Shown one piece after another: positions 681 to 63,271 of a stretch of DNA of 64,000 nucleotides. The first letter of the stretch is position 1, and each line of letters starts with the position of its first letter. The stretch comes from Neoarius graeffei. Lineage: Eukaryota; Chordata; Actinopteri; Siluriformes; Ariidae. Below the pieces are notes generated by a model that saw nothing but the letters and a program-made list of their open reading frames with translations, was not told where the DNA came from and did not search any database. The position numbers were made by a program, and so were the translations under genes. The stretch spans positions 73,625,649 to 73,689,648 of the forward strand of contig NC_083569.1 of the NCBI RefSeq assembly GCF_027579695.1, written 5' to 3'.

Positions 681-1057
681 CAGGTCGTTTTCTCATAAAC
701 AAACCAGCGTAGGATTCAGAGGGAGGCACGAAAATCACGAAAATCAATGTTTGTCGGGAAATCCAAATGCCAAGTTTTTTCAGAGGCGGCGGACCAATTC
801 GCCTCAAATGGCTTGATTTCAACTGAATTTCTCTGGTATTGCGCAAGATAAAAAAAATTGCACAAAATGCAAAATGTGGCAGATATTTGACCAAAGTTTA
901 ATATAAAATAGGAGAATTACATTGATCTTGCTCCTGAATTTACCCGTGATAGCAAAATATGCACTTTAACTCCTTGCTCATACCAATGATCCTCTCTGGC
1001 TAAAATGCGTACGTTGCAATCCTGAAATGAGTGTCTTTTGTTGTTAAGACGAAGGTA

Positions 1058-1132
1058 ATCAACCTCATCAGCCGTTGGGTTCGAACCCAAGCCCTTCTCG
1101 CTGTGAGGTAACAGTGTTAACCACTACACCAC
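1058..1132 (-). mobile_element. SINE head fragment
   Basis: The minus strand of 'gggttcgaacccaagcccttctc' to 'accactacacc' matches the A-box/B-box head of the tRNA-derived SINEs in this window. Only the head survives and it is diverged, so it is an old copy. Confidence 0.6.
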
Positions 1133-1449
1133 TCTTTCTTCTGAGGGCATGTCATGTAATTTGACTAATCCTTCTCCAATCCTCTAGATGGCGCTGTGGC
1201 GCTTTAGTCTTAAACCCGTTTATCATTGCAGTGTCTTCATCCAGGATCAATACAAACAACAGTGTCACTGTGGAACAGCTGCGAAATAATATTTTCTCAA
1301 CTGATTTGGCTGATTATAAACAGGTAAAAGGCATGCAATTTAGCGCAGTAAAGGCAGCTTTGATATGCGTAGTGAGTTGTTTAAGGCTCTATTTCTTAGT
1401 TTTTTTGTTTGTTTTTAAAGCTGCGTAACCAGTTAAATGAACTCGTGAA

Positions 1450-1831
1450 TGTGATCTACAGCAGTGTGGATGGTTCTGTGGATCTACAGCACTGTGGGTG
1501 GTTCTGTGGATCTACAGCACTGTGGATGGTTCTGTGGATCTACAGCACTGTGGGTGGTTCTGTGGATCTACAGCACTGTGGATGGTTCTGTGGATCTACA
1601 GCACTGTGGATGGTTCTGTGGATTTACAGCACTGGGTGGTTCTGTGGATCTACAGCACTGTGGGTGGTTCTGTGGATCTACAGCACTGTGGGTGGTTCTG
1701 TGGATCTACAGCACTGTGGATGGTTCTGTGGATCTACAGCACTGGGTGGTTCTGTTGGTGGTTCTGTGGATCTACAGCACTGTGGGTGGTTCTGTGGATG
1801 GTTCTGTGGATCTACAGCACTGTGGATGGTT
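1450..1831 (+). repeat. 28-bp minisatellite
   Basis: About thirteen head-to-tail copies of a unit close to 'ggttctgtggatctacagca' plus 'ctgtggat', with GGAT/GGGT variants and a few shortened units. Because 28 is not divisible by 3, the array reads without stops in all three forward frames, each giving the same peptide register in rotation (WFCGSTAL, VLWIYSTV, GSVDLQHC). This marks the open frames as a repeat artefact. Confidence 0.95.
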
Positions 1832-3326
1832 TCCATACTGATGTCTGCTCGGTATTGTTAGTGTACAGTGTACTGAGCCCTGTCTAGTATAACACTGTGG
1901 CTAAGGCGGAGCAGGGCAACTTAACACACTCTCTGGGCTTTCAAAAGGAAATTAATCCATAATCTTTTCGCCGAATTAAGAGGCAGTGTTCACAGAAAGT
2001 CAGCTTCTGTTCTCGGGTGTTTGTGTTTTGCCTTTGTTCACGTCACGCCCTGCCTGCTCGCCACTCCTCAGGTTTTGTGCCATTTTTCGGGAGTGCCATA
2101 GAAACACGACTTTCCGTCTGCTGGAATCGCCAACCTGCTCAGTCCTGACAATAAACACACACTGACGCGTTTTGTGATGGAAATCAAATAACATGGTCGT
2201 TTTAGCAACAGAAGGAAAGATGAGAGTGACAGGATGGCAACAAGCTGTCTGTAATAAGGTTGAAATTGTTTGGTTGGCTGGCTGTTTGGTCTCACTGTGC
2301 ACTCAGAAAATAAAGTACATTATTGTTTACGCGGTGCGGTTTCCATCAAATCCTGCGCTCTGATTGGCTGGCGAGCGGCTCTGTATCCTACATTACAGAC
2401 CCCGGTTATGGGTTGTTTTACAATCAGGGTCCGCAAGCTAAAAATCACATTTAACACTTATTATCTTCAATATCAAAAGGCTTGACTAAATAAACTTGGT
2501 TGTTTATTGTAGCCCTGTGATAGCTCTATTTACCATGCAAAAAAAAATGGTGATAAGGTTATTTTTGGTGAATGTATGGCAATATGTCATATTTAGCAAA
2601 ATTACTCGTGTCATTTAGAAAAAGTGCTTTTTTGACCACAGGTAGCTCCAAAAGGGATGCACTTAAATCATTCTTTATACCATAAAACAAATATTTGGTT
2701 CCATATCATTGGAAACATAGTTAAGTTTTAATGTTGAATGCCAGTAAGTTTTCAGACTATTTTGATCAAATTAGTATGTAATTGTGTCAAAAAAATGTCC
2801 TCTCTGAGACAGCTAATTTTTCAATATAAAATAACATATCTAAAATGATTATTTTCATCCTAAAATGTGGTCAAGATAATGGGACATAAATATTAGAGAC
2901 AACTAACACAAAGCTTACAGCCTTGTATTTAAAAGCACTATGGAAGTAGTGGATTCTGAATTGTCAAAAAAAAAAAAATGTCCTCTCCGAGAATCACTTC
3001 ATTTGTTTCTCCCAGCCGTGCTTAAAGCTCCACTTAATCTTGTTATAATACAAACTATTACACATGCCTGTCTGTTCTTTAACTTGTCCTTCACTTAAAA
3101 ACTGGTACAAGAACCAGTTTGAATCAGTTTGAATTTTGGACCCCTGGGACACAAACTTTGTACCCTGATTGTAAAACAACCCTTACGGACCTCTGGCGAC
3201 TCGCTCATTCACAACAATAACAAACATGGTAGCATTTTTTTGTCAACATTTATCTTTTTTATAAGATTTATTTCTAAGATTTTTATAAAAAATCTTGTAA
3301 ATTTTTGCCAGCATTTCTCAGGAAAA
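1832..3326. other. No gene recognised
   Basis: AT-rich non-coding sequence. The short motif 'aaaaaatgtcctctc' occurs twice (near 2790 and 2970), which suggests an old dispersed repeat. A GC-richer stretch at 1880-2420 has a weak reading frame on the minus strand with no recognisable domain. Nothing else is supported. Confidence 0.5.
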
Positions 3327-4235
3327 TAGCATTAATTTTACAGCATGGACAGCGATAACGACAGTGTTCACAGCGAAAGCGAGTTTTACTACCCTGAGGA
3401 AGAAGAAATAAAAGAAAACATTTCAGGAGAAAGCTAAAAACCTCTAACTGAATGACTCAAGTTTGTATAAATAGGGGACTACATAGGTGGCAAAATGTAA
3501 TTTTCTTCCTACCATGGAAGTTCCCTTGTATACCGAGGAGGAAGCAATTTGTATTACAGCCGTGAATGTGGATTCAAAATAGCATTAATTTTATAGCATG
3601 GATAGTGATAACGACAGTGTTCACAGCGAAAGCGAGTTTTACTGCCCTGAGGAAGAAGAAATAAAAGAAAACATTTCAGGAGAAAGCTAAAAACCTGTAA
3701 CTTGCTAACAGTTTGATCTCATTAGTTAATGAGGCCCATTTTGGACCATGTTATCCTAATACATAATACTACGTTTGGTAAAAACTTTAAACCAGTACAA
3801 TCTCTTCTTCAAAGTTTCACCAAATGGCTTTATTTATGCAATATAAAGGTCATAATACTGTATAACTCTGGTCGAGCAAAAACATGGCTGAATCCTGAAT
3901 GACTCCTATTTGTATAAATAGGGGACTATATAGGCGGCAACATGTAGTTTTGTTTTTTTTTTCCTGCCATGGAAGTGCACTTGTATACCGAGGAGGAAGC
4001 AGTTTGTATTACAGCAGTGAATGAGGATTCAAAATGGCGGCTTGGCTCGGTTTTCCCTTTCGGGCGCTCTCGTTTTCTGTTAGAATTTGGTAAAGAAAAA
4101 CATAAATATATTATTTACCAGCTTAAGGTCGGTCCGTATGGTGAAATACCGTGACCTCGGCCTTGTTCAATACTTTCAAGACCTCGGTCACGGTATTTTA
4201 ACGATACGGACCTCCCAGTTGGTAAATAACATGTA
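3327..4235 (+). mobile_element. Old DNA-transposon-like repeat with duplicated leader exon
   Basis: A segment with a TATA-like box ('tataaataggggact') and a short frame beginning MDSDNDSVHSESEFYYPEEE occurs at about 3344 and again at about 3598. The promoter-like part and a second frame (ME, then LYTEEEA) occur at about 3460-3575 and again at 3895-4035. The acidic leader resembles the leader at 44821-44880 of another repeat here, where it precedes a P2X7-C-terminal-like peptide. I read this as a rearranged 5' end of a non-autonomous or decayed element; the superfamily is not assigned. Confidence 0.5.
4111..4230. repeat. Hairpin inverted repeat
   Basis: 'ttatttaccagc' followed by 'ccgtatggtgaaataccgtg' on the left is mirrored on the right by 'cacggtattttaacgatacg' and 'ccagttggtaaataa', separated by a short loop around 4165. 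It probably forms the terminal hairpin of the repeat to its left. Confidence 0.8.
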
Positions 4236-4331
4236 TTTATTGTACCTTTGGGGTACATCAGCTTGTCACTGAGGCAGTACCCTCTAAGGTACTTATTTGT
4301 TACCTTTTACGGGTAGCAACCTTTTACGGGC

Positions 4332-4475
4332 CTAATCTGCATGTCTTTGGACTGTGGGAGGAAACCGGAGTACCTAGAGGAAACCCACGCAGACACAGTG
4401 AAAACATGCAAACTCCACACAAAGACCCCAGTCGAGCACAAGGTTTGAAGCCGGAACTTGCTTGCTGTGAGGCGA
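4332..4475 (-). mobile_element. Diverged SINE fragment
   Basis: The minus strand carries the central SINE body ('catgtctttggactgtggga', 'aaacccacgcagac', 'catgcaaactcc') and the head end 'gctgtgaggcgatag'. It has many differences from the young copies, so it is an old insertion. Confidence 0.75.
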
Positions 4476-4939
4476 TAGTGGGCAATTTTTATTTTTAAAA
4501 TCCTAAAATGCGAGTGTAAATCATGACGAAATGCTTATTATTGTGTAACACCCATTCCAGGGTGTCTGTGCTAATTTCATGAACCTACAATCAACAGATC
4601 TTTGTTGGCTATTAATAAACTGTTAGTCATTTCTGTTAAAACACATTTTGTGGTGATAAGATGTTGGATAGCACTGTATAAACCAAGACTGATATTCTGA
4701 GAGACTTATTTATACGTCACTTGCTGATAATAGATGAGCTGGTTCTGGGTATTCCCCCTCCCCCCCAAATAGTACAATTCTCAGTCTCACACCTAGGGTC
4801 AGTTTTAGTATAGACCCTTTTCACGTGACGTCACGACAAACGCGGCCGCCATTTTGGACATGTACTACCAGTAGTTTACCACAGCCAGCATTGAGGAATG
4901 GCAGCAAAGAAAGTGTTTCTTTTCAGCAAGACTTCCATC

Positions 4940-5103
4940 ATGCCACTATATTGTTGTGCACCTGGATGTAGTAACCATCAACAAACAAGGCAAGGTTTAT
5001 CATTTTATCGGATCCCGACGGAGAAGATGGATAGCGGCCATAAACAGGAAAGATTGGCAGCCCTCTGCATACCAATGCTTGTGTAGTGACCACTTTGTTG
5101 GAG
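4940..5103 (+). pseudogene. THAP zinc-finger exon of the transposon
   Basis: The exon starts MPLYCCAPGCSNHQQ and goes on to GLSFYRIP, the N-terminal half of a THAP domain with its C-x4-C pair. The frame then shifts by one, and the next frame gives RRRRWIAAINRKDW followed by CSDHFVGG, the conserved W and the closing C-x2-H pair. 'ggaggtaaga' at the end is a good splice donor. The domain is thus whole apart from a frame break of one base near 5020. In the family this domain binds the terminal DNA of the element. Confidence 0.7.
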
Positions 5104-5304
5104 GTAAGACGAATAAAATTAGCCAGAAAAGGCATTACATTGCTGTTAACATTCTGTGGCGGCGAGTGTGTAACCAAATAGGCTAAAATAACCCATTGTA
5201 ACCTCTGTTCTTCTGTAGTAGCTATTAGCTAACGACATTAGCTAGCGTTGTGTTCCTTTGCTGTTGGTAGACTGTAGGACAGATCAGAGGCAGTGTCCTA
5301 CAAA

Positions 5305-5672
5305 CAGCGCTTAATTTGAGGGGGAGCAAGCCGGAGCGCGCTCCGGAACCTCGGGCGTTGGCTCCGGCAGCTATTTACACTGGATCCGGTGATCCGACAC
5401 CTCTTTTGACTATGTAACAAAAAAAAAAAACAAATAATTAAATAAAAAAATGCAAGTTTATTTAGTGTTAATGTCTGATTTTGATATCTGTCTTGTTGGT
5501 GATTTCTCTCATGAAACGACATCCACAAAATATCTGCAGATGAACTTAATTTGCAGTGTTATTACAAAACATGCCCAGAAGCGCAGCGCCCCCCTCCCCC
5601 CCTCTTTTTTTCCGCACCGGAGCCGCTCATCCTCTGTGCTCCGGGACCTCCCACTTTACAAATTAAGCATTG
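5305..5672. mobile_element. hAT-type MITE, 368 bp
   Basis: It is flanked by a perfect 8-bp direct repeat, CCTACAAA, at 5297-5304 and 5673-5680. The inverted ends are cagcgcttaatttg on the left and caaattaagcattg on the right. Eight-bp target duplications are the hAT signature. It has no transposase and is inserted in the THAP-bearing element. Confidence 0.88.
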
Positions 5673-6309
5673 CCTACAAATAAGTGTTCAAAACAAGAGG
5701 AACATGTATTTGTCTCTTAAATCCAGGCCGTTCCCTGTAATCTGTCACAACGGTTGGAGAAAGTAATGGCAAATAGTGAGTGCACAAACCGTAGAAGGTA
5801 AACTGTACACAGCGCCAGGGCAGTGTGATGGTATGTCTACTTTTAGATTGTGTTAGCTTATCAGTGAACACACTCGTCACTCGACGAGTTTCACGTCTTT
5901 ACGACGGATACTTAAATGTGTGTTAGGTATTATTGTTGCAGTCTAAGCAGTCATTGTAGCAGCTAGATGAGCGAGAACCGAAAGGGTCTGTGCCATAAAC
6001 CGTTATTTCTGTACGGCGTTGCTACTGTTCTTATTTCTCCCTCTGCTCGCCCTGTAAATGCCCTACGTCGCTGGATAGCGAAGGTATTTTCTGCATCTCG
6101 CTCCTTTTTCTTGTATGTTCTCCGTTTGTCGCCTTCCTCGCATTCAAACTAATTCGAGCCGAAGTCCGCTACATGTCCAAAATGGTGGTCACATTTACGA
6201 AGGTCACGTGACTGAAAAGGGTCTTTGGGCAGTAGGAGAAAACCGGGGAACCTGTAGGAAACGTACATGAACACCCCTAAAGCTGGCACCAAAACTAATA
6301 AAGGTAATA

Positions 6310-6419
6310 GAAGAAGCCTGTATTTGTCACATGTACCCTCAAGCACAGCAAAAATCCTCCTCTACATTTAACCCATCTAAAGTAGTGAACACGCACATAC
6401 CCAGAGCAGTGGGTAGCTA
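6310..6419. repeat. Left half of a dispersed repeat split by a Tc1 copy
   Basis: The segment ending 'cccagagcagtgggtagct' continues directly after the Tc1 insertion at 7998 as 'tgctacagctacaggggagc'. The two halves belong to one older repeat. Confidence 0.6.
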
Positions 6420-7995
6420 CAGTGGTGCTTGAAAGTTTGTGAACCCTTTAGAATTTTCTATATTTCTGCATAAATTTGACCTAAAACATCATCAGATTTC
6501 ACACAAGCCCTAAAAGTAGATAAAGAGAACCCAGTTAAACAAATGAGACAAAAATATTATACTTGGTCATTTATTTATTGAAGAAAATGATCCAATATTA
6601 CATATTTGTGAGTGGCAAAAGTATGTGAACCTCTGATGGAACAATGTTTTCAATCAATGGGATGACAATCAGGTGTGAGTGGGCACCCTGTTTTATTTAA
6701 AGAACAGGGATCTATCAAAGTCTGATCTTCACAACACATGTTTGTGAAAGTGTGTCATAGCATGAACAAAGAAGATTTCTGAGGCCCTCAGGAAAAGCGT
6801 TGTTGATGCTCATCAGGCTGGAAAAGGTTACAAAACCATCTCTAAAGAGTTTGGACTCCACCAATCCACAGTCAGACAGATTGTGTACAAATGGAGGAAA
6901 TTCAAGACCATTGTTACCCTCCCCAGGAGTGGTCAACCAACAAAGATCACTCCAAGAGCAAGGCGTGTAATAGTCGGTGAGGTCACAAAGGACCCCAGGG
7001 TAACTTCTAAGCAACTGAAGGCTTCTCTCACATTGGCTAATGTTCATGAGTCCACCATCAGGAGAACACTGAACAACAATGGTGTGTGTGGCAGGATTGC
7101 AAAGCCACTGTTTTCTAAAAAGAACATTGCTGCTTGTCTGCAGTTTGCTAAAGATCATGAGGACAAGCCAGAACGCTATTGGAAAAATGTTTTATGGACG
7201 GATGAGACCAAAATAGAACTTTTTGGTTTAAATGAGAAATGTTATGTTTGGAGAAAGGAAAACACTGCATTCCAGCATAAGAACCTTATCCCATCTGTGA
7301 AACATGGTGGTGGTAGTAGTATCATGGTTTGGGCCTGTTTTGCTGCATCTTGGCCAGGACGGCTTGCCATCATTGATGGGACAATGAATTCTGAATTATA
7401 CCAGCCAATTCTAAAGGAAAATGTCAGGACATCTGTCCATGAACTGAATCTCAAGAGAAGGCGGGTCATGCAGCAAGACAACGACCCTAAGCACACAAGT
7501 CGTTCTACCAAAGAATGGTTAAAGAAGAATAAAGTTAATGTTTTGGAATGGCCAAGTCAAAGTCCTGACCTTAATCCAATCAAAATGTTGTGGAAGGACC
7601 TGAAGCAAGCAGTTAATGTGAGGAAACCCATCAATGTCTCAGAATTGAAGCTGTTCTGTACAGAGGAATGGGCTAAAATTCCTCCAAGCCGGTGTGCAGG
7701 ACTGATCAACAGTTACTGGAAAAGTTGAGTTGCAGTTATTTCTGCACAAGGGGGTCACACCAGATACTGAAAGCAAAGGTTCACATACTTTTTGCCACTC
7801 ACAGATATGTAATATTGGATCATTTTCCTCAATAAATAAATGACCAAGTATAATATTTTTGTCTCATTTGTTTAACTGGGGGGGTGTTTCTCTTTATCTA
7901 CTTTTAGGACTTGTGTGAAAATCTGATGTTTTAGGTCATATTTATGCAGAAATATAGAAAATTCTAAAGGGTTCACAAACTTTCAAGCACCACTG
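6420..7995 (+). mobile_element. Tc1-like element, family 1 copy a
   Basis: Full-length 1576-bp element. It begins 'cagtggtgcttgaaagtttg' and ends with the reverse complement of that sequence, between TA dinucleotides at 6418-6419 and 7996-7997. It contains a dead transposase gene. Three further copies of the family lie at 36866-37821, 52339-53533 and 60728-63271. Confidence 0.95.
6757..7770 (+). pseudogene. Tc1 transposase, inactivated
   Basis: The frame matches the family-1 transposase (about 340 aa, paired-like helix-turn-helix DNA-binding half then a DD34E catalytic half). Compared with the other copies, the start codon is ATA (6757), the third codon is a stop, a short segment after GRIAKP is missing, and the C-terminal frame has a second stop at 7726. 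The catalytic motifs read WTDETK and QQDNDPKH, but the third acidic residue is lost: SPDLNPIKM instead of SPDLNPIEM. The open part runs from about 6883 to 7728. Confidence 0.9.
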
Positions 7996-7999
7996 TATG

Positions 8000-8210
8000 C
8001 TACAGCTACAGGGGAGCAGTAGGGGGTTAGTTGTCTTGCTCAAGGGCACTTCAGCCATGATATAGAGGGAGGGGTAAGTGCTGTTCATTCACTAAACTCT
8101 CCTCACATTTTTCCTGCTGGTCCCAGGAATCAAAACCGGTGACCCTTTGGGCCCAAGGCTGCCCCTAATAACCTCAGCTCAGGATCAAACTCATGAGCCT
8201 GGAGCTATGA
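8000..8210. repeat. Right half of the dispersed repeat
   Basis: It carries the 'ttgctcaagggcacttcagcc' type of sequence. A related segment, 'cttgagcaaggcaccta', is found in the opposite orientation in a SINE-like repeat at 21483-21662. No gene is present. Confidence 0.6.
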
Positions 8211-8577
8211 GGCAACAATGCTACTCACTGCTGCAATGTGTTACGCACACATTACAATTCTCGACTCGCTACATATGATAAATAGCATTCATGTGGAATT
8301 TTAAACATAATGTCCTCTCCTGAATACAGTTGGTTCACAGGCAGTATCAAATTTTGACTACATGCAGCTTTTGCAACATGAAAAGTACAATTTTTTTTGT
8401 GTTCACTTGGAAGTCAGACCCTCATTTGATTATATTTAGACATGTGGTGAGGTATTTCTGTCTGAGGACAATTGGAGTTTCTGAATGTTGCTATTTCTTG
8501 TGTACAGAGATACAGTGATGTCAGATTTTATGAAGAATATGGGTAAAACATGATAGAAATATTGTGAGGTTAATTTC

Positions 8578-8934
8578 TCATCTCATCTCTCATTCTCATC
8601 TCATTATCTCTAGCCGCTTTATCCTTCTACAGGGTCGCAGGCAAGCTGGAGCCTATCCCAGCTGACTACGGGCGAAAGGCAGGGTACACCCTGGACAAGT
8701 CGCCAGGTCATCACAGGGCTGACACATAGACAACCATTCACACTCACGGTCAATTTAGAGTCACCAGTTAACCTAACCTGCATGTCTTTGGGGGAAACCG
8801 GAGCACCCGGAGGAAACCCATGCGGACAACATGCAAACTCCGCACAGAAAGGCCCTCGCCGACCCCGGGGCTCGAACCCAGGACCTTCTTGCTGTGAGGC
8901 GACAGCGCTAACCACTACACCACCGTGCCACCCC
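8578..8934 (-). mobile_element. tRNA-derived SINE
   Basis: A complete copy in reverse, flanked by a 13-bp duplication TGAGGTTAATTTC at 8565-8577 and 8935-8947. The tail (catctcatctc) is at the left and the pol III head at the right. A 20-base part of the body is missing relative to other copies. Confidence 0.95.
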
Positions 8935-9433
8935 TGAGGTTAATTTCAAACGTATAAATGGAAAATTTCAAAAGTTTTTAAATTATACCTAGGTACATGT
9001 GAATTCTGTTGAGTGTTCCTTAGATTGAGAATAAAAGAAAACTGTAAGTGATTAAGCTTTGACATTTCTTCTTTCATGCACCTTAAAACATTCATAAGCC
9101 CAAAAGAAACCCTGTTTTCATTTTCACCTCAGGAAGGGTGGAAGTTGCAGTCTTTCCTGTGAGAGTACCCATTGACATTTACCACTTGTTTTTATCTCTT
9201 TTTTTTTTTTTTTGCTGAATTTTGGTGGCTCGTGGCAAAGAACATGCTTGAAATATAATGTTTTAGGACTTCATATGCAAATTATCACATGCCTTCTCTT
9301 GACTATTCTCGATTCCTGATGTTTTAGCAATGCTAAAGCCATATACCGACACGTGTTGTTTGCATGCAGGCTGTGTTCAAATCTCACAGATCTTCTCAAT
9401 AACAGTTCATAAAATGTGCTGTATTTTTGTTTT

Positions 9434-11673
9434 GGCAGATTCTACCATAACAGAGGCCAGTTAAGTCCCATCTCCTTAAATTGCTGAATTGATTATTTTG
9501 ATCATTCTATTAAGTTTTTCTAGTAGCATTTGGGGTCTTGGACATTCACAGTAAATTTTAGGACAGTAGTCCTGGTAACTAATTAATAAAAGCCTGACAT
9601 GACAGACATGCTAAATGACAATAGAAACACATCGGTTTCTATCATCAAAATCTGACCGACAAACTAACGTCTACCATCATATTCTGACAGACACTGTAGA
9701 TGACAATAGCAACAAAACTGTTTCTTACATTATTAATCTGACAAATTTAGTAATAATATTAAATACGTCATCACTAGAACCAAATAATAAAATAAAATAT
9801 TGAAATAAAAAAGATTAAATTTATTTTCAAAATTGAAATATCAACAATAATTGTCAGAACAGTGACGATAGACACGACTGTGTCACTTTCGCGGGGAAAT
9901 AACACATTGAAATGGCCTGTCGGCTGAAAGGGTCGCAAGCGGCTCTGATTTATCTCAACTTGCGATAGTTTTCCTCCAGAAAAACTTAAATATGAATGCA
10001 CAAATATATTCTCAGTGTTTCTATTGTCAAAAATTTCTATCGTCAGGATAGCTGACTGAAAATCTTACCTTGATTTATTTGATGAAATCTAGCTGTCAGA
10101 ACTCCAAGTCTTGCCCGGAAGTAAATGTCTGCTGTCACAAAAATCACGCGCAATAGAATTTCCTCTTTGCGTCAGTCAACATGTGCGTGGTGAGGGCTTG
10201 AATTTTGCTATCGTCAGGTGCATTTGACTGACAGACTGATGATAGCATTTTTTTAAAAATAACTGTGGGCTTCTCTCGTGAACGAAATAGTTTTTTCGCT
10301 GTTAATCTATTTCAACTCTATCTGTTGACACTAGGGCTGTAACGATACACCCAACTCACGATTCGATTCGTATCGCGATTTTTGACCCACGATTCGATAC
10401 GCCCACTATTTTTTTTAAATGTTTTTTTAAAGTAGTAAATTTGACTTATTTACTTACTTACATTAACTATTTAATAACAAATAATTCAGACCACTGCAGA
10501 GAATGAGTAATATGTATGCAAAAATGAACAAATGTATATCCAAAGACTGTTTTATTTCTCAAAATAATACTGTTGAGCCGGAAGCTCTGTTTTTTTCGGT
10601 TCTGAAAAAGTCATTTTTCCAAATCGTGTAAATCCGTTAAGATTTTTTTGGGGGGGGGGGTGGCTCTCTCACTGTCTCACTCTCATAGGGCCAATGATTT
10701 TCTGTGATCGCGGAAAACAGATGGAAATTACGGAATTTTTATGGTGAAACATTGCTCGCGTGTCAAAATGTAACTGCCACAGAAGGCTTCCGCCCAAGCA
10801 GACATGCCTTCAGTGTTGCCAGATATTGCTAACGTTTTCCACCCCAAAATATGTTCAAAACCAGCCAAAAAGCACCTAAACCCGCCCAATCTGGCAACAC
10901 TGCATGCCTTTCCGGTCAAGTGATTGTGATTGGCTTGTGGCACACCTAGCCACCCAATGAGCTGCTTGTTTACAGATTCGCTCCCCGCGTCGCAACCAGA
11001 ATGGCGACCGCTTAAAAGAAATGAATGCTCTGCCAGTGGCGAGTGTGGACGTTGCGTGACTCGCAGAATATTGTCGCAGGTCGGCGAAAAAATGACTTAC
11101 TAATAGATATAAAAAAATAAAAGTAATTTAAGTAAGTTTAAAATGTAATTTAAATAAAAAGTAAAGTATTCATAAATTGAAGTTTAGAAGCGCCTCTGTT
11201 TTTGGGCTGAGGAGAAGTTTGAAAGGGTGTACCGCGATTCTGCCTTCTTGTATCGTGATACAGATCGTGGCTCTGCGTATCGCGATTTCGATTTCGATAC
11301 GCATATCGTTACAGCCCTAGTTGACACCCAAAAATTATAAAGCCTGCTTCCACACGATAACTACCAAAGATCCATAATGGCCGAGTCTATCGTCAGGTCA
11401 TCTGACAGAAATTCACTGACGATAGCAACAGGGATAATGAAAGTGATTTTTAAAATGGGAGTTATGTCTGTCAGATATGTCAGAGAAATAGAACTTTATT
11501 CTTTAAAAGTCTTTTATTGATATACTCAGTGTATTTTTAAATGACGTGCTGTTTTAGAAGACCAAATACCATATTTTCAATCTTGAAAATATTACCTCAC
11601 TGAAAAAAGGACAAGAAAAATTTCTTATTTTGTGGGCAAGTGGTTAATGGATCCAGTTACGGTAGAATCTGCC
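9434..11673. mobile_element. Putative non-autonomous DNA element with repeated internal motif
   Basis: GGCAGATTCTACC at 9434 is mirrored by GGTAGAATCTGCC ending at 11673. Between them, outside the nested hAT MITE, the motif CTATCGTCAG or close variants occurs about ten times in both orientations (for example near 9866, 10032, 10211, 11393 and 11415). This resembles the subterminal transposase-binding repeats of some cut-and-paste elements. No transposase frame is seen. The superfamily is unknown and the boundaries are an inference from the inverted ends. Confidence 0.5.
10332..11319. mobile_element. hAT MITE, 988 bp
   Basis: The inverted ends TAGGGCTGTAACGATAC and its complement are flanked by a perfect 8-bp duplication, GTTGACAC, at 10324-10331 and 11320-11327. 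The sequence just inside the ends is rich in 'cgattcg'/'tatcgcgat' motifs. The interior has no transposase. It sits inside the putative element at 9434-11673. Confidence 0.93.
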
Positions 11674-20024: not shown

Positions 20025-35193
<15,169 letters not shown>

Positions 35194-42740: not shown

Positions 42741-44339
42741 GGCGGCATGGTGGAGTGGTTAGCGCTGTCGCCTCACAGCAAGAAGGTCTGGGTTCGAGCC
42801 CCATGGCTGGCGAGGGCCTTTCTGTGCGGAGTTTGCATGTTCTCCCCGTGTCCGTGTGGGTTTCTGCCGGGTGCTCCGGTTTCCCCCACAGTCCAAAGAC
42901 ATGCAGGTTAGGTTAACTGGTGACTCTAAATTGACCGTAGGTGTGAATGTGAGTGTGAATGGTTGTCTGTGTCTATGTGTCAGCCCTGTGATGACCTGGC
43001 GACTTGTCCAGGGTGTACCCCACTGTAACGGTTCACTAGGCGTGGGTGGAGCACAGAGGATGGCAGGACAGAGATCAGGTTTGCAAAAGGCTTTATTGCC
43101 ACACTTTTCAGTGAACAATTCTATATTGGCTAGACACACACACACACAGCCCGCATCTAGTCCGGAGATGGGCCCCTCTGCTCTTGCTCTCCCTCCTTAA
43201 GTAGGGCGCAGTCACTGGGAAGACACACAAACACAGGTTAATTGCCGTCAGGTGTAGTGATTCTGCCACTTACCTTCCCTGACTCCGCCCTCCTGTCACA
43301 GACCGGCACTTGACCACGCCCCCACTGCCACATACCCCCACCGCCCGACTCAGGCTGGGCGGCCGTCCGGCCTGCAGCCGACTCCCCCCCCCCCCCTTGA
43401 CGGGAGAGGAAGTCCGCCATGACCATCTGCGCCCCCGGCCTGTGGACTACCTTAAAATTGAAGGGTTGGAGTGCCAGATACCAACGGGTGATCCACGTGT
43501 TGGCATCCTTCATGTGGTGGAGCCGCTGGAGGGGCGCGTGGTCCGAACAGAGGGTGAAAGGGCGCCCCAGCAGATAGTAGCGGAGGGCGAGGACCGCCCA
43601 CTTGATCGCCAGACACTCTTTCTCGATAGTACTGTAGCGCCCCTCACGCACTGACAGCTTCCTGCTAATGTACAGGACAGGGCGGTCCTCCCCCTCCACC
43701 TCCTGGGACAAAACCGCCCCCAGCCCTCTGTCCGATGCATCGGTCTGCAACATAAAAGGGAGAGAAAAGTCAGGGGAGTGTAATAGTGGCCCCCCACACA
43801 GTGCAGCCTTTACCTCAGAGAAAGCCCGCTGGCATTGCTCCGTCCACTGGACCGGATCTGGTGCCCCCTTTTTAGTGAGATCAGTCAGCGGGCTGGTGAC
43901 GTCCGAATAATTAGGTATAAACCTACGATAGTAGCCAGCCAGTCCTCCGGCCGCGGGCCCGTCTCCCCTCACCGTTACCAAGATGGGTCCGCAGGACGAC
44001 CCCGAGGCTTTCATCACACTATTCGAACAATTCTATATTGGCTAGACACACACACACAGCCCGCATCTAGTCCGGAGATGGGCCCCTCTGTTCTCGCTCT
44101 CCCTCCTTAAGTAGGGCGCGGTCACTGGGAAGACACACAAACACAGGTTAATTGCCGTCAGGTGTAGTGATTCTGCCACTTACCTTCCCTGACTCCGCCC
44201 TCCTGTCACAGACCGGCGCTTGACCACGCCCCCGCTGCCACACCCGCCTTTCGCCCGTAGTCAGCTGGGATAGGCTCCAGCTTGCCTGCGACCCTGTAGA
44301 ACAGGATAAAGAGGCTAGAGATAATGAGATGAGATGAGA
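42741..44339 (+). mobile_element. tRNA-derived SINE split by an LTR element
   Basis: The head and body (42741-43023) and the tail (44243-44339) are one SINE, interrupted by an LTR retrotransposon fossil. Outer target duplication: GAACATGCAA before and GAACATACAA after. Confidence 0.93.
43024..44242 (-). mobile_element. Ty3/Gypsy LTR retrotransposon fossil
   Basis: A 309-bp left LTR (43024-43332, starting TG and ending CA) and a partial second LTR (about 44025-44242) bracket about 0.7 kb of internal sequence. The minus strand of the internal part matches the reverse transcriptase/RNase H region of Ty3/Gypsy pol. It is a broken fossil with most of the internal region absent. The two LTRs are still very similar, so the insertion is fairly recent. 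The target duplication appears to be 5 bp (CCC[A/G]C). Confidence 0.88.
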
Positions 44340-49439: not shown

Positions 49440-50805
49440 ATGGGAAGAGGCTCACCAATCCCCCTAATTCTGCGCTAACAAATAGTGGAGCAATATCAGA
49501 AAGGAGTTCATCTCATCTCATCTCATTATCTCTAGCCGTTTATCCTGTTCCACAGGGTCGCAGGCAAGCTGGAGCCTATCCCAGCTGACTATGGGCAAAA
49601 GGCGGGGTACACCCTGGACAAGTCGCCAGGTCATCACAGGGCTGACATATAGACACAGACAACCATTCACACTCACATTCACACCTACGGTCAATTTAGA
49701 GTCACCAGTTAACCTAACCTGCATGTCTTTGGACTGTGGGGGAAACCGGAGCACCCAGAGGAAACCCACGCGGACACGGGGAGAACATCCAAACTCCGCA
49801 CAGAAAGGCCCTCACCGGCCGCTGGGCTCGAACCCGGACCTTCTTGCTGTGAGGCGACAGCGCTAACCACTACACCACCGTGCCACCCCCTCTAGAGTGC
49901 ATATCATCATCAAAAGATTCAGAGAATCTGGAAGAATCTCTGTGTGTAAGGGTCAAGGCCGGAAAACCATACTGGGTGCCCGTGATCTTCGGGCCCTTAG
50001 ACGGCACTGCATCACATACAGGCATGCTTCTGTATTGAAAATCACAAAATGGGCTCAGGAATATTTCCAGAGAACATTATCTGTGAGCACAATTCACCGT
50101 GCCATCCGCCGTTGCCAGCTAAAACTCCATAGTTCAAAGAAGAAGCCGTATCTAAACATGATCCAGAAGCACAGACGTCTTCTCTGGGCCAAGGCTCATT
50201 TAAAATGGACTGTGGCAAAGTGGAAAACTGTTCTGTGATCAGACGAATCAAAATTTGAAGTTCTTTATGGAAATCAGGGATGCCATGTCATTCGGACTAA
50301 AGAGGAGAAGGACGACCCAAGTTGTTATCAGCGCTCAGTTCAGAAGCCTGCATCTCTGATGGTATGGGGTTGCATTAGTGTGTGTGGCATGGGCAGCTTA
50401 CACATCTGGAAAGACACCATCAATGCTGAAAGGTATATCCAGGTTCTAGAGCAACATATGCTCCTATCCAGACGACGTCTCTTTCAGAGAAGACCTTGCA
50501 TTTTCCAACATGACAATGCCAAACCACATACTGCATCAATTACAGCATCATGGCTATGTAGAAGAAGGGTCTGGGTACTGAACTGGCCAGCCTGCAGTCC
50601 AGATCTTTCACCCATAGAAAACATTTGGCGCATCATAAAACGGAAGATACGACAAAAAAGACCTAAGACAGTTGAGCAACTAGAATCCTACATTAGACAA
50701 GAATGGGTTAACATTCCTATCCCTAAACTTGAGCAACTTGTCTCCTCAGTCCCCAGACGTTTACAGACTGTTGTAAAGAGAAAAGGGGATGTCTCACAGT
50801 GGTAA
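49440..50805 (+). pseudogene. Tc1 transposase, interrupted
   Basis: The frame starts [10 protein letters not shown] at 49440, is broken by the SINE at 49510, resumes at [13 protein letters not shown] (49897) and ends KGDVSQW at 50805. A TGA replaces the Trp of the first catalytic motif (WSDESKF) near 50238. The second motif keeps its Asp ([10 protein letters not shown]), unlike copy a, and the third is [11 protein letters not shown]. Confidence 0.9.
49510..49890 (-). mobile_element. tRNA-derived SINE inside a Tc1 element
   Basis: A full-length reverse copy. No target duplication is seen. Instead, the flanking Tc1 sequence lacks about 45 bp present in the sister copy, so insertion was accompanied or followed by a deletion. 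Confidence 0.93.
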
Positions 50806-52338: not shown

Positions 52339-53533
52339 CAGTGGTGCTTGAAAGTTTGTGAACCTTTTAGAATTTTCTATATTTCTGCAAAAATATGGCC
52401 AAAAACATCATCAGATTTTCACACAAGTCCTAAAAGTAGACAAAGTGAACCCAGTTAAACAAATGAGACAAAAATATTATACTTGGTCATTTATTTATTG
52501 AGGAAAATGATCCAATATTACATATCTGTGAGTGGCAAAAGTATGTGAACCTCTAGGATTAGCAGTTAATTTGAAGGTGAAATTAGAGTCAGGCATTTTC
52601 AATCAATGGGATGACAGTCAGGTGTGAGTGGGCACCCTGTTTTATTTAAAGAACAGGGATCTATCAAAGTCTGATCTTCACAACACATGTTTGTGAAAGT
52701 GTATCATGGCACAAGCAAAGGAGATTTCTGAGGACCTCAGAAAAAGCATTGTTGATGCTCATCAGGCTGGAACAGATTACAAAACCATCTCTAAAGAGTT
52801 TGGACTCCACCAATCCACAGTCAGACAGATTGTGTACAAATGGAGGAAATTCAAGACCATTGTTACCCTTCCCAGGAGTGGTCGACCAACAAAGATCACT
52901 CCAAGAGCAAGGCATGTAATAGTTGACGAGGTCACAAAGGACCCCAGGGTAATTTCTAAGCAACTGAAGGCCTCTCTCACATTGGCTAATGTTAATGTTC
53001 ATGAGTCCACCATCAGGAGAACACTGAACAACAATAGTGTGCATGGCAGGGTTGCAAGGAGAAAGCCACTGCTTTCCAAAAAGAACATTGCTGCTCGTCT
53101 TCAGTTTGCTAAAGATCATGTGGACAAGCCAGAAGGCTATTGGAAAAATGTTTTGTGGACAGATGAGACCAAAATAGAACTTTTTGGTTTAAATGAGAAG
53201 CATTATGTTTGGAGAAAGGAAAACACTGCATTCCAGCATAAGAACCTTATCCCATCTGTGAAACATGGTGGTGGTAGTATCATGGTTTGGGCCTGTTTTG
53301 CTGCATCTGGGCCAGGATGGCTTGCTATCATTGATGAAACAATGAATTCTGAATTATACCAGCGAATTCTAAAGGAAAATGTCAGGACACCTGTCCATGA
53401 ACTGAATCTCAAGAGAAGGTGGGTCATGCAGCAAGACAACGACCCTAAGCACACAAGTCGTTCTACCAAAGAATGGTTAAAGAAGAATAAAGTTAATGTT
53501 TTGGAATGGCCAAGTCAAAGTCCTGACCTTAAT
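52339..53533 (+). mobile_element. Tc1-like element, family 1 copy b, 5' part
   Basis: It starts with 'cagtggtgcttgaaagtttg' after TA at 52337-52338 and is interrupted at 53534 by a hAT element. Only about 16 bp of matching Tc1 sequence (ccttaatccaatcaaa) follow the hAT at 58570, after which the sequence is unrelated. The rest of the Tc1 is therefore missing. Confidence 0.92.
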
Positions 53534-53662
53534 CAAGGCTTTCAAGCCTCACGCATTGAGAGTGAGACACACGCATTTCAACGAGTTCACATGCTCACTC
53601 TGAACTTCTCCAATAATCGCACAGAAATTCCTTCAAGCTATCTACAAACGTCACAGCCGTAG
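52706..53662 (+). pseudogene. Tc1 transposase cut by a hAT insertion
   Basis: An open frame from MAQAKEISEDLRKSIVDAHQ through the DNA-binding half (QSTVRQIVYKWRKF, PTKITPRARHV) and the first two catalytic motifs ([20 protein letters not shown]) up to SPDLNQ. It then reads into the hAT terminal sequence and stops at 53660-53662. The third catalytic residue is lost. Up to the insertion it is the least damaged family-1 frame in the window. Confidence 0.93.
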
Positions 53663-59412: not shown

Positions 59413-60727
59413 ATTTATCATTTTAATCTGAGACATTTTGATCTTGTATTAAATGTGTATTGTTTAATACAGCTTTATCCATTTTAAAACATGTTTAAAT
59501 ACATTTTGTTCGTTTATTTAGAAAAGGCTGTAAGATGTTTTGTAGTCCAGATGAGATTGTATCCTTCTGATTGGTCGGTTTGTGAACTCATTCTCATTTC
59601 CTCCTCCTCTTTGTGTGCACAGACTTTTAAAGCTGTTAATTTGTGTGTTTCTGTTGCCTCTGCTTTGTTGTCGTTGAGGTTTGGGGTTGTTTACATGCTA
59701 ATGATGCGGTTTCTATATTTAATTAACTGTTTATGACTAAAGCATATCTTCCGTCCTCGTGTGTTGTGTAGTGAAGGATGTCCCTCCTGGTCATTCCTTC
59801 GCTTAAGTGTCGCTTTTTGGCTAAGATCAAGTGTAATATCTGTTCTTATCAGTTTAATATCTGATACGTTTTCTATCCGGGAGCCATATATTAAATTGAT
59901 TTTTGGAATAGGGAAATGGAATAAAAGCTTGCTTCGTCTACTTCATGCATTGACTCAGTATTGCAGTACTTCTTGGAACAGTGCATCTCTTTTATATCGT
60001 GAAAAAAAAGAAAAGCTCAGTGTTTAAGTAGTCTGTGATTAGAATATATGTAATTATTACTTAATACTGGGTGTTGCTCATTTTTTTGAATGTTAAATAA
60101 CATGTTGAATTGGTAGTTTTCTTTTGTTTAAATGTACTGCATGTAGTGATCAAGTAAAATTGCCACCATAGTTTACACGAGTGGTGGGTTTTTATGTCAT
60201 TGTTTCATGTGTTGGTGAGAAAATCAAGTGAAGGATCAGGGTCTCTATTCTGTGGAGAAATGCTTTCCTTCTCTTGAATTAACTGTTACTTTTTTTTTAT
60301 TTTAGCTTTGTGTTGTTTTTTTTAAACAACACCTGTTATTGAAAGTACAAAACCAACATAGCAAAATTGTTATCCTATTAAATGTAGGAAAGAACAGAGA
60401 AATTATGAAAGTGAACAATCTGATAAAAATCTAGTATAAACAACTTTATAATACAAAATTGAAAATAAATTATGCATGAAATCTTGTAGTCAGAGATGTC
60501 CATGGACAGAGAGGGGAATAAAAGGAAAACAAAGCAAGAAAACTAACAAACATGCATACAAGGGGGAAATTATTTTATCTTGTCAGTTATCTAATTAGTG
60601 GGAAATAGTGGGGAAAATGTTTTAAAATATCAGTCTTTCTGCTTTTGCACCTTTTGCAAATTTTAAGGATCTTAAATATAAATTTGTTAAAGAAAATAAA
60701 CATGAAATCATGTGTGTGTGAGATGTA
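59413..60727. other. No gene recognised; contains a dispersed-repeat copy
   Basis: 59920-60290 matches the repeat at 41850-42725. The rest is AT-rich. The frames at 59491-60027 have no recognisable domain. Confidence 0.55.
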
Positions 60728-61454
60728 CAGTGGTGCTTGAAAGTTCGTGAACCCTTAAGAATGTTCTATATTTCTGCATAAATATGACCTAAAACATCAT
60801 ATTTTCACAGAAGTCCTAAAAGTAGATAAAGAGAACCCAGTTTTGTGAGTGGCAAAAGTATGTGAACCTTTGCTTTCAGTATCTGGTGTGACCCCCTTGT
60901 GCAGCAATAACTGCAACTAAACATTTCCGGTACCTGTTTATCAGTTCTGCACACCGGCTTGGAGGAATTTTAGCCCATTCCTCCATACAGAACAGCTTCA
61001 ACTCTGGGATGTTGGTGGATTTCCTCACACGAACTGCTCGCTTCAGGTCCTTCCACAACATTTCGATTGGATTAAGGTCAGGACTTTGACTTGGCCATTC
61101 CAAAACATTAACTTTATTCTTCTTTAACCATTCTTTGGTAGAACGACTTGTGTGCTTAGGGTTGTTGTCTTGCTGCATGACCCACCTTCTCTTGAGATTC
61201 AGTTCTTGGGCAGATGTCCTGACATTTTCCTTTAGAATTCACTGGTATAATTCAGGATTCATTGTTCCATCAATGATTGCAAACCATCCTGGCCCAGATG
61301 CAGCAAAACAGGCCCAAACCATGATACTACCACCACCATGTTTCACAGATAGGATAAGGTTCTTATACTGGAATGCAGTATATCTGTGAAGATACTCAGT
61401 CGTCCAGGTACATAGTAATCTGTGGTTGGTAGAAGAGAGCAACTGGACTTGCTT

Positions 61455-61519
61455 GAACAGTCTTGAAGACGTTTCGCCTCTCGTCCGAAAGGCATCATCA
61501 GTTCTGTCTGTCTCTGTTC
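61455..61519 (-). ncRNA. Hammerhead ribozyme-like motif, copy 1
   Basis: The same 65-nt sequence and fold as the copy at 61997-62061, on the minus strand. Confidence 0.65.
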
Positions 61520-61721
61520 AGTGATGGTCGTTCCAGACTGACAAAATTGAACGATCCTCTCTGGCTAAGATGTCTGCCAGTTTTCTGGAAGTCCTCTCAT
61601 ACTCCCGCACTAGTCGAAGGGAACTCATCCCAAAGTGTGTAGAAACATATCTGTGAAGATACTCAGTCGTCCAGGTACATAGTAATCTGTGGTTGGTAGA
61701 AGAGAGCAACTGGACTTGCTT

Positions 61722-61786
61722 GAACAGTCTTGAAGACGTTTCGCCTCTCGTCCGAAAGGCATCATCAGTTCTGTCTGTCTCTGTTC
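61722..61786 (-). ncRNA. Hammerhead ribozyme-like motif, copy 2
   Basis: The same fold, on the minus strand, 267 bp from copy 1. Confidence 0.65.
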
Positions 61787-61996
61787 AGTGATGGTCGTTC
61801 CAGACTGACAAAATTGAACGATCCTCTCTGGCTAAGATGTCTGCCAGTTTTCTGGAAGTCCTCTCATACTCCCGCACTAGTCGAAGGGAACTCATCCTCA
61901 GAACTCATCGGGAGTATGAGAGGACTTCCAGAAAACTGGCAGACATCTTAGCCAGAGAGGATCGTTCAATTTTGTCAGTCTGGAACGACCATCACT

Positions 61997-62061
61997 GAAC
62001 AGAGACAGACAGAACTGATGATGCCTTTCGGACGAGAGGCGAAACGTCTTCAAGACTGTTC
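61997..62061 (+). ncRNA. Hammerhead ribozyme-like motif, copy 3
   Basis: Core CUGAUGA at 62015-62021, GAAAC at 62041-62045 and GUC at 62046-62048, with the predicted cut after 62048. Stem II is GCCUUUC/GAGAGGC with loop GGAC (7 bp, one U-G), after a single extra U. Stem I is GAA (62012-62014) with UUC (62049-62051), an internal loop, then GAACAG (61997-62002) with CUGUUC (62056-62061). Stem III is only the A-U and C-G of GAAAC-GUC, as in the minimal type I hammerheads described in Penelope-like elements. Confidence 0.7.
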
Positions 62062-62263
62062 AAGCAAGTCCAGTTGCTCTCTTCTACCAACCACAGATTA
62101 CTATGTACCTGGATGACTGAGTATCTTCACAGATATGTTTCTACACACTTTGGGATGAGTTCCCTTCGACTAGTGCGGGAGTATGAGAGGACTTCCAGAA
62201 AACTGGCAGACATCTTAGCCAGAGAGGATCGTTCAATTTTGTCAGTCTGGAACGACCATCACT

Positions 62264-62328
62264 GAACAGAGACAGACAGAACTGATGATGCCTTTCGGAC
62301 GAGAGGCGAAACGTCTTCAAGACTGTTC
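62264..62328 (+). ncRNA. Hammerhead ribozyme-like motif, copy 4
   Basis: The same fold, on the plus strand, 267 bp from copy 3. Confidence 0.65.
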
Positions 62329-63271
62329 AAGCAAGTCCAGTTGCTCTCTTCTACCAACCACAGATTACTGGAATGCAGTGTTTTCCTTTCTCTAAACATA
62401 ATGCTTCTCAGTTAACCCAAAAAGTTCTACTTTGGTCTCATCCATCCACAAAACATTTTTCCAATAGCCTTCTGGCTTGTCCACGTGATCTTTAGCAAAC
62501 CGCAATGAGCAGCAATGTTCTTTTTGGAGAGCAGTGGCTTTCTCCTTGCAACCCTGCCATGTACACCATTGTTGTTCAGTATTCTGCTGATGGTGGACTC
62601 ATGAACATTTAACATTAGCCAATATGAGAGAGGCCTTCAGTTGCTTAGAAATTATCCTGGGGTCCTTTGTAACCTCACTAACTATTCCACGCCTTGCTCT
62701 TGGAGTGATCTTTGTTGGTCGAACACTCCTGGGGAGAGTAACAATGGTCTTGAATTTCCTTCATTTGTACACAATCTGTCTGACTGTAGATTAGTGGAGC
62801 CTAAACTCTGTAGAAATGGTTTTGTAACCTTTTCCAGCTTTAGAAGCATCAACAATGCTTTTTCTTGAGATCCTCAGAACTCTCCTTTGTTCGTACCATG
62901 ACACACTTCTACAAACATGTATTGTGAAGATCAGACTGTGATAGATCCCTGTTCTTTAAATAAAACAGGGTGCCCACTCACACCTGATTGTCATCCCATT
63001 GATTGAAAACACCTGACTCTAATTTCACCTTCAAATTAACTGCTAATCCTAGAGGTTCACATACTTTTGCCACTCACAGATATGTAATATTGGATCATTT
63101 TCCTCAATAAATAAATAAATGACCAAGTATAATAATTTTGTCTCATTTGTTTAACCGGATTCTCTTTATCTACTTTTAGGACTTGTGTGAAAATCTGATT
63201 ATGTTTTAGGTCATATTTATGGAGAAATATAGAAAATTCTAAAGGGTTCATAAACTTTCAAGCACCACCGT

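Follow-up and report, generated by a model that had tools for sequence, protein, structure and literature searches.

The stretch of DNA analysed here, hereafter the window, spans 64,000 nucleotides of contig NC_083569.1 of the catfish Neoarius graeffei, and carries at 61380-62366 an insertion made of 267-bp units, two antisense and two sense, complete or truncated, which are arranged head to head. Positions within units are designated s when they refer to the sense position in the 267-bp unit, and t when they refer to the position in a related 374-bp unit. The features of the insertion and of its immediate surroundings are the following.

61181..61366, no strand: interrupted Tc1-like transposon, left part (stretch compared), 92-95% to the insertion-free copies in the window
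61367..61379, no strand: target-site duplication (TSD), left copy, ACTGGAATGCAGT, uninterrupted in other Tc1-like copies
61380..61413, minus strand: antisense-arm 'tail', extending 34 nt past s233 or 38 past s229, with its outer edge at reverse transcription (RT) start site 2 (s267)
61380..61646, minus strand: tailed arm, complete 267-bp unit
61647..61897, minus strand: tailed arm, truncated inner unit, cDNA 3' end at s17
61468..61501, minus strand: minimal hammerhead motif 1 (CUGAUGA...GAAACGUC), from sequence, no Rfam match
61735..61768, minus strand: minimal hammerhead motif 2, from sequence, no Rfam match
61898..61908, no strand: central filler of 11 nt, 8 nt of which (GAACTCAT) match the neighbouring 60 nt (p=0.007 versus shuffles)
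61909..62136, plus strand: tailless arm, truncated inner unit, cDNA 3' end at s40
62015..62048, plus strand: minimal hammerhead motif 3, predicted cut 62048/62049, from sequence, no Rfam match
62137..62366, plus strand: tailless arm, outer unit, its outer limit at RT start site 1 (s229/s230), where primer-template overlap takes in 4 nt of the target
62282..62315, plus strand: minimal hammerhead motif 4, from sequence, no Rfam match
62367..62379, no strand: target-site duplication, right copy
62380..62566, no strand: interrupted Tc1-like transposon, right part (stretch compared), 87-94% to the insertion-free copies in the window

Comparison of the window with itself returned direct repeats at 61380-61630/61647-61897 and at 61909-62102/62176-62369, both with a spacing of 267 and 100% identity, as well as inverted arms of 461 nt at 61414-61874/61909-62369. 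Both antisense copies are identical across their overlap and, in the region covered by both arms, the sole difference between them is found at query position 23 (sense s245, a CpG). The hammerhead-bearing array in the order minus, minus, plus, plus, with 267-bp spacing within each orientation, is therefore present as the original prediction had described it (sense cores start at 62015 and 62282, antisense cores end at 61501 and 61768). Equally borne out is its clean 13-bp target duplication, ACTGGAATGCAGT being found on both sides at 61367-61379 and 62367-62379, with empty sites elsewhere. The host of the insertion is a Tc1-like transposon, three further copies of which keep the target site unbroken within the window; the unbroken site is also present in L069, L070, L072-L074, L077, L079 and L089, eight overlapping loci that represent about four places, and some of the copies with an unbroken site show a base change in it. 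These uninterrupted Tc1-like copies at the same point make both the insertion and its target duplication certain.

Elsewhere in the window, matches to Tc1/mariner-type transposases lie in long open frames at 6766-7728, 22413-23495, 50239-50805 and 52697-53662, with DDE_3 in all four and the Sleeping Beauty HTH in two. A U2 snRNA-like sequence on the plus strand at 59802-59991 (134 bits, full model length, several broken pairs) is probably a diverged copy or pseudogene, and an RNase H domain of reverse transcriptase on the minus strand at 43238-44032 (RT_RNaseH, E 6e-35) probably derives from an LTR-type element. A short Tmemb_185A match (44 aa, E 1.5e-11) on the plus strand at 21689-22255 indicates a probable exon or retrocopy of a TMEM185-like gene.

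All four units display CUGAUGA, a 7-bp stem II, GAAAC and GUC, and thereby the conserved core CUGANGA...GAAA...UH together with stem II; both the length of this stem and the predicted cut at 62048/62049 coincide with those first proposed. One extra nucleotide sits between CUGAUGA and stem II, and stem III is missing, GUC following directly after GAAAC with no loop. Rfam hammerhead families gave no match at the gathering score, nor at E<=10, on 61300-62450, in a search that included no positive-control hammerhead; such a miss is expected of covariance models when the motif has no helix III. Sub-threshold Rfam matches such as mir-3167 lie on the palindrome arms and were discarded. Minimal hammerheads of Penelope-like elements (PLEs) without helix III have been described (PMC6155905, PMC7761336; these and the other papers cited are drawn on here in part). 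The hammerhead identity originally assigned is thus supported by sequence as that of a minimal PLE variant, although the covariance-model test that had been proposed for its refutation failed, and self-cleavage is to be regarded as a prediction only. The minimal type I motif of PLEs may act as dimers (PMC7761336, PMC6155905), and in an Anolis element the hammerhead cleaved only when the protein of the element was present (PMC11167929). At the stem III position the motif of the present units shows a self-complementary ACGU, through which two copies could pair.

When searched for across the genome, the motif pattern produced 554 matches in its strict form and 3,405 in a relaxed one, versus 0 in both for a reversed-pattern control; the strict matches indicate that the motif is not due to chance, while core likeness among the matches is no independent proof of constraint, since the search pattern itself fixed most of the core. 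Two hammerhead lineages are found among the matches listed, the one of the window (CUGAUGA-U-GCC...GGC) and a commoner one (CUGAAGA-A-GCC...GGU); among these matches the lineages differ in the base at position 7, and at the base of the stem G-C and G-U pairs occur, with A-U in some copies. In the loci found by similarity the sole common core variant is T/G at s150 (29/120 copies), which we take to be N7, the free position of the hammerhead core.

The window does contain the two-part stem I of the original prediction; the outer part of that stem, however, consists of the junction of a 107-bp deletion and the private base s189G (4/134 unit copies, all four in the window), and consequently it is not ancestral. 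This base (~62058) pairs with the deletion junction upstream of the core, giving a 6-bp outer stem I for which modelling shows a gain of ~6 kcal/mol over the common form; upstream of the core, the 267-bp and 374-bp forms do not have the same sequence. Either RNA strand could fold on paper, as had been suggested, but in an RNA that reads across the entire insertion the two arms are predicted to pair with each other, taking up 932 of the 990 nt and burying all four cores, which makes ribozyme activity of the window copy appear doubtful.

The origin of the unit was traced through its longer relatives. The 267-bp unit corresponds to the 374-bp form minus 107 bp, and a 213-bp form lacks a different part of it. 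A decayed longer element, L118, picked because it holds the hammerhead motif, shows an RVT_1 match (E 2e-11, above cut-off) and a weaker GIY-YIG match (E 7.6e-4, 20.2 bits, under the 22.6 cut-off), broken reading frames and two hammerheads 2,511 bp apart. The 374-bp unit aligns to both of its ends in several pieces at 85-92%: unit 251-374 and 1-75 match the start region of L118 (88.7% and 92%), unit 75-97, 98-174 and 206-371 correspond to stretches close to its end (91%, 85% and 88.6%), and 480-2411 of L118 is absent from the unit. In addition, unit 1-75 resembles, in one frame, the start of the L118 reading frame. Since pieces of both ORF ends are retained while 480-2411 of L118 is gone, the unit reads as a PLE without its ORF body, that is, as a non-autonomous, internally deleted derivative. 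With the ORF body deleted it has no coding capacity of its own, and it is therefore classified here as a PLE derivative only; a frame-2 peptide of the unit gave no Pfam match at E<=1. Two PLE traits are found, a parent with RT and GIY-YIG domains, through L118 and with the GIY-YIG part below threshold, and a pLTR arrangement with a tail of 30-40 bp. The Penelope link initially drawn thus holds by way of L118; on the contrary, the accompanying proposal that terminal repeats were mobilised on their own does not, the unit holding pieces of both ORF ends with the middle deleted.

This parent-type element is decayed, and no intact autonomous source was identified in this genome. Among the 36 matches of a genome GIY-YIG search, L112, L113 and L114-L117 were examined, and they show neither a meaningful match to the unit nor a hammerhead of this pattern. 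Right at the beginning of contig C15 (G000, 1035-10970), outside the window, GIY-YIG matches recur with a period of 1,613 bp, and 768-aa frames recur near several contig ends, perhaps reflecting a tandem PLE-like array at chromosome ends.

Sibling copies were gathered by similarity (40 of 1,323 candidates scored, with 144 matches listed that correspond to 39 loci including the window, the other 38 being retrieved) and by pattern (35 further loci from among the listed part of the 554 matches). Every two-armed locus examined shows the antisense arm first and the sense arm second, namely head to head. In 66 of 67 two-armed loci one outer end bears a tail of ~35-40 bp and the other is tailless, a rule that holds by set in 30/30 independent loci, 30/30, 5/5 (short loci of the other hammerhead lineage) and 1/1 (a 2.2-kb copy), and across two hammerhead lineages. 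One of the outer ends is situated at s262-267 and the other at s226-237 (t371-374 and t327-339 in the 374-bp form). If ends were picked independently and equally, the chance of 66/66 would be, by simple arithmetic, ~1e-20. The 67th locus, L103, is a misfit, its left end being tailless, its right arm ending at t250 and no TSD being present.

In 59 loci, RT initiation clusters at t373 and t335-336, apart from one outlier at 382 and another at 325. The mean primer-template overlap at these two sites is 1.29 nt and 1.56 nt, versus 0.52 and 0.45 with targets swapped between loci, and the TSD is exactly 13 bp in 45/59. Target logos, as judged by eye, reveal no more than a weak tendency, symmetric on the two strands, for the cut to fall before GT, and on the same inspection the target sequence gives no explanation of the side on which the tail lies. 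Single-armed independent loci amount to 11, nine tailed and two tailless (L040 and L080); their TSDs are clear in L044, L080 and L090, doubtful in L032 (simple repeat) and L067, and none is seen in six. L080 has a TSD and only a tailless arm, which suggests that site 1 is able to act without site 2. The window copy is an ordinary member of an abundant non-autonomous PLE-derived family, and the interest of the case lies in the rule shown by its sibling copies rather than in the window copy itself.

These insertions of a non-autonomous, internally deleted PLE probably arose by two-ended target-primed reverse transcription. In such a process, (i) an RNA with at least two tandem units, coming from a tandem array or a circle, would be bound by a PLE-encoded RT-endonuclease, (ii) the endonuclease would cut both target strands 13 nt apart, a distance given by the observed 13-bp duplication, presumably leaving 3' overhangs, (iii) cDNA synthesis on the sense RNA would be primed by each 3' end, with site 2 (s267, tail) used by one of them and site 1 (~s229) by the other, as the end positions at each resolved locus show one of each and as position and microhomology suggest for the priming itself, (iv) each cDNA would extend upstream over successive units, to the variable lengths observed, and (v) the facing cDNA 3' ends would be joined by short microhomology or templated filler, a signature seen at the centres that points to a Pol-theta-type enzyme. 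The outcome would be a head-to-head array flanked by target duplications. Two-ended priming takes the place of the processed or template-switched RNA to which the inversion had initially been attributed, since both outer ends are RT start sites and the two like ends expected from copy-back appear in 0/66 resolved loci.

A template switch of another kind would also yield exactly one tail per insertion. In it, a sense-templated cDNA would move onto an antisense RNA starting near s229, so that the tailless end would represent an RNA 5' end instead of a priming site, and both antisense templates and oppositely oriented promoters have been proposed for PLEs (PMC3846280). Nonetheless, this route appears unlikely, considering that (i) tailless ends share microhomology with the target well above that obtained with swapped targets (mean 1.56 versus 0.45), (ii) L080 is, if only as one case, a tailless single-armed insertion with a TSD, (iii) the tailless position resembles one of the two adjacent internal RT starts of the Anolis PLE (PMC11167929), and (iv) the same antisense start would be needed in both hammerhead lineages.

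The centres, where the arms join, bear on the last step of two-ended priming. Out of 58 centre junctions, 25 contain an insert and 33 do not. Microhomology of at least 2 bp is present in 26/33 insert-free joins, while random joins of the unit give 0.16 per join (p ~5e-14 using 0.18), and 6/12 inserts of 5-60 nt, that of the window included, resemble the adjacent 60 nt more closely than shuffled sequences do (p<=0.01). In 46/58 centres the arms end more than 3 nt apart in the unit; near-symmetric centres, with arms within 3 nt, account for 12/58 versus 1.3 expected, and 7 of these 12 are located at RT start sites. Both arms end at the same RT start site in L035, L037, L039, L054, L059, L100 and L111 (and in L085, outside the 58), which fits two polymerases meeting on one small template. 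For the near-symmetric minority as a whole, such RT collision, or stalling at the start-site hairpin, is a possible cause. Hammerhead-cut RNA was also considered as the RT template and rejected, because inner ends at t284-289 are enriched (7 versus 1.9 expected) but t219-224 and t365-370 are equally rich.

The excess of near-symmetric centres indicates that some foldback or collision step also occurs, and together with L049, joined via a 20-nt overlap at the hammerhead, it would be in line with one cDNA folding back and copying itself into a palindrome, self-priming on an antisense template having been offered for head-to-head PLE copies (PMC3846280). As the general origin of the arrays, however, such snap-back is improbable: copying back to the start would give two tailed or two tailless ends, while 66/66 resolved loci have one of each, the arms end more than 3 nt apart in most centres, and where the second end joins the target, a precise RT start and primer-template overlap are seen. 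Single-ended target-primed reverse transcription into an existing copy, or later rearrangement, inversion or assembly error, is a very remote prospect even though PLE copies are known as tandem and variable (PMC3846280) and the L077 flank has a 23-nt repeat including tail sequence, and as a general cause it is refuted by the visibly different 13-bp duplications directly at RT start sites across insertions and by the intact empty site of the window insertion in three other copies within the window. What counts against two-ended priming is the near-symmetric centres, L103, the single-armed loci and the failure to identify an intact autonomous source in this genome.

Variants within and between loci inform on the template that two-ended priming would have used. 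Outside CpGs, units of one arm diverge by 0.37%, arms of one locus by 0.26% and loci by 1.25%, with subfamilies pooled. In the window, s110T and s189G are present in 4/4 units, which points to one source for both arms. Across 55 loci, most shared non-CpG variants occur in every unit covering them, a pattern expected if a single unit had been multiplied, for instance from a circle, or if the source array had been homogenised. Three of the 55 loci, L043, L052 and L095, show a non-CpG variant in some units only, yet in units of both arms; there the template contained two or more distinct units, with a single source for both arms, which disfavours a single-unit circle as template at least in them. 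In L043 and L052 the outermost tailed-arm unit agrees with the second unit in the tailless arm, whereas in L095 two variants tie it to the first unit and a third does not, so that no fixed register is apparent. The tailed arm of L036 starts 8 nt inside the next unit, and hence its template had a unit-unit junction. This start and the unit-wide variants would fit either a circle or a tandem RNA, the signs of circular RNA being only indirect.

Several known systems share part of these traits. The Pen families of Adineta vaga are PLEs with inverted pLTRs, a tail being present on one of them (PMC3846280). In comparison with that account, the catfish unit, shortened to 267 bp by internal deletion, lacks an ORF body and recurs inside each arm, only one of the two ends of each resolved locus bears a tail, the TSD is fixed at 13 and centres mostly exhibit end-joining signatures instead of palindromes. 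The PAc/Poseidon element of Anolis carolinensis (PMC11167929) resembles the present case in having a hammerhead where the ORF begins, a pair of adjacent internal RT starts that define the tail, and an endonuclease that cuts and extends both strands; it differs in that the data were obtained in vitro with full-length protein. The parts of that study drawn on here find no start-site difference between strands and report neither one start site per end in a single insertion nor cDNA joining, so that its start-site result alone does not predict the one-of-each rule. Animal retrozymes (PMC7229834, PMC7761336) are similarly non-autonomous tandem hammerhead units, of ~170-400 bp, with PLE/Terminon enzymes proposed as movers, and unit-wide variants would fit single-unit multiplication, as from a circle. 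The insertions here share with them short tandem hammerhead units without ORF and TSDs. Unlike canonical retrozymes, however, which have complete type I hammerheads in tandem arrays, the catfish unit is a direct PLE deletion derivative with a minimal motif that has no stem III, arranged in head-to-head arrays with non-identical template units in 3/55 loci.

The two-ended account would unite the enzyme data from Anolis (PMC11167929) with the description of inverted pLTRs (PMC3846280). To these the present analysis adds three elements, namely the one-of-each rule, a fixed stagger and a joining signature, none of which is stated in the titles and abstract openings surveyed, with subscription literature mostly outside that survey. 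In the parts of these two papers drawn on, PLE insertion and the frequent head-to-head copies with an optional tail are treated as open (PMC3846280, PMC11167929). Dozens of cleanly bounded copies in one genome reduce them to a simple rule, a tailed and a tailless end, a 13-bp duplication and an end-joined centre, which turns loose observations into one testable model with specific biochemical and genetic predictions. We lean slightly towards a further step, in which PLE integration would be obligately two-ended: a single enzyme-RNA complex would hold both 3' ends of the 13-nt staggered cut and assign them, one each, to the two adjacent start sites of a tandem or circular hammerhead RNA, which would account for the single tail of every insertion, and joining of the two cDNAs would be left to Pol-theta-type repair. 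If this is true, the one-tail rule would be a genome-readable fingerprint of a mechanism unlike both the target-primed reverse transcription of LINEs and LTR integration.
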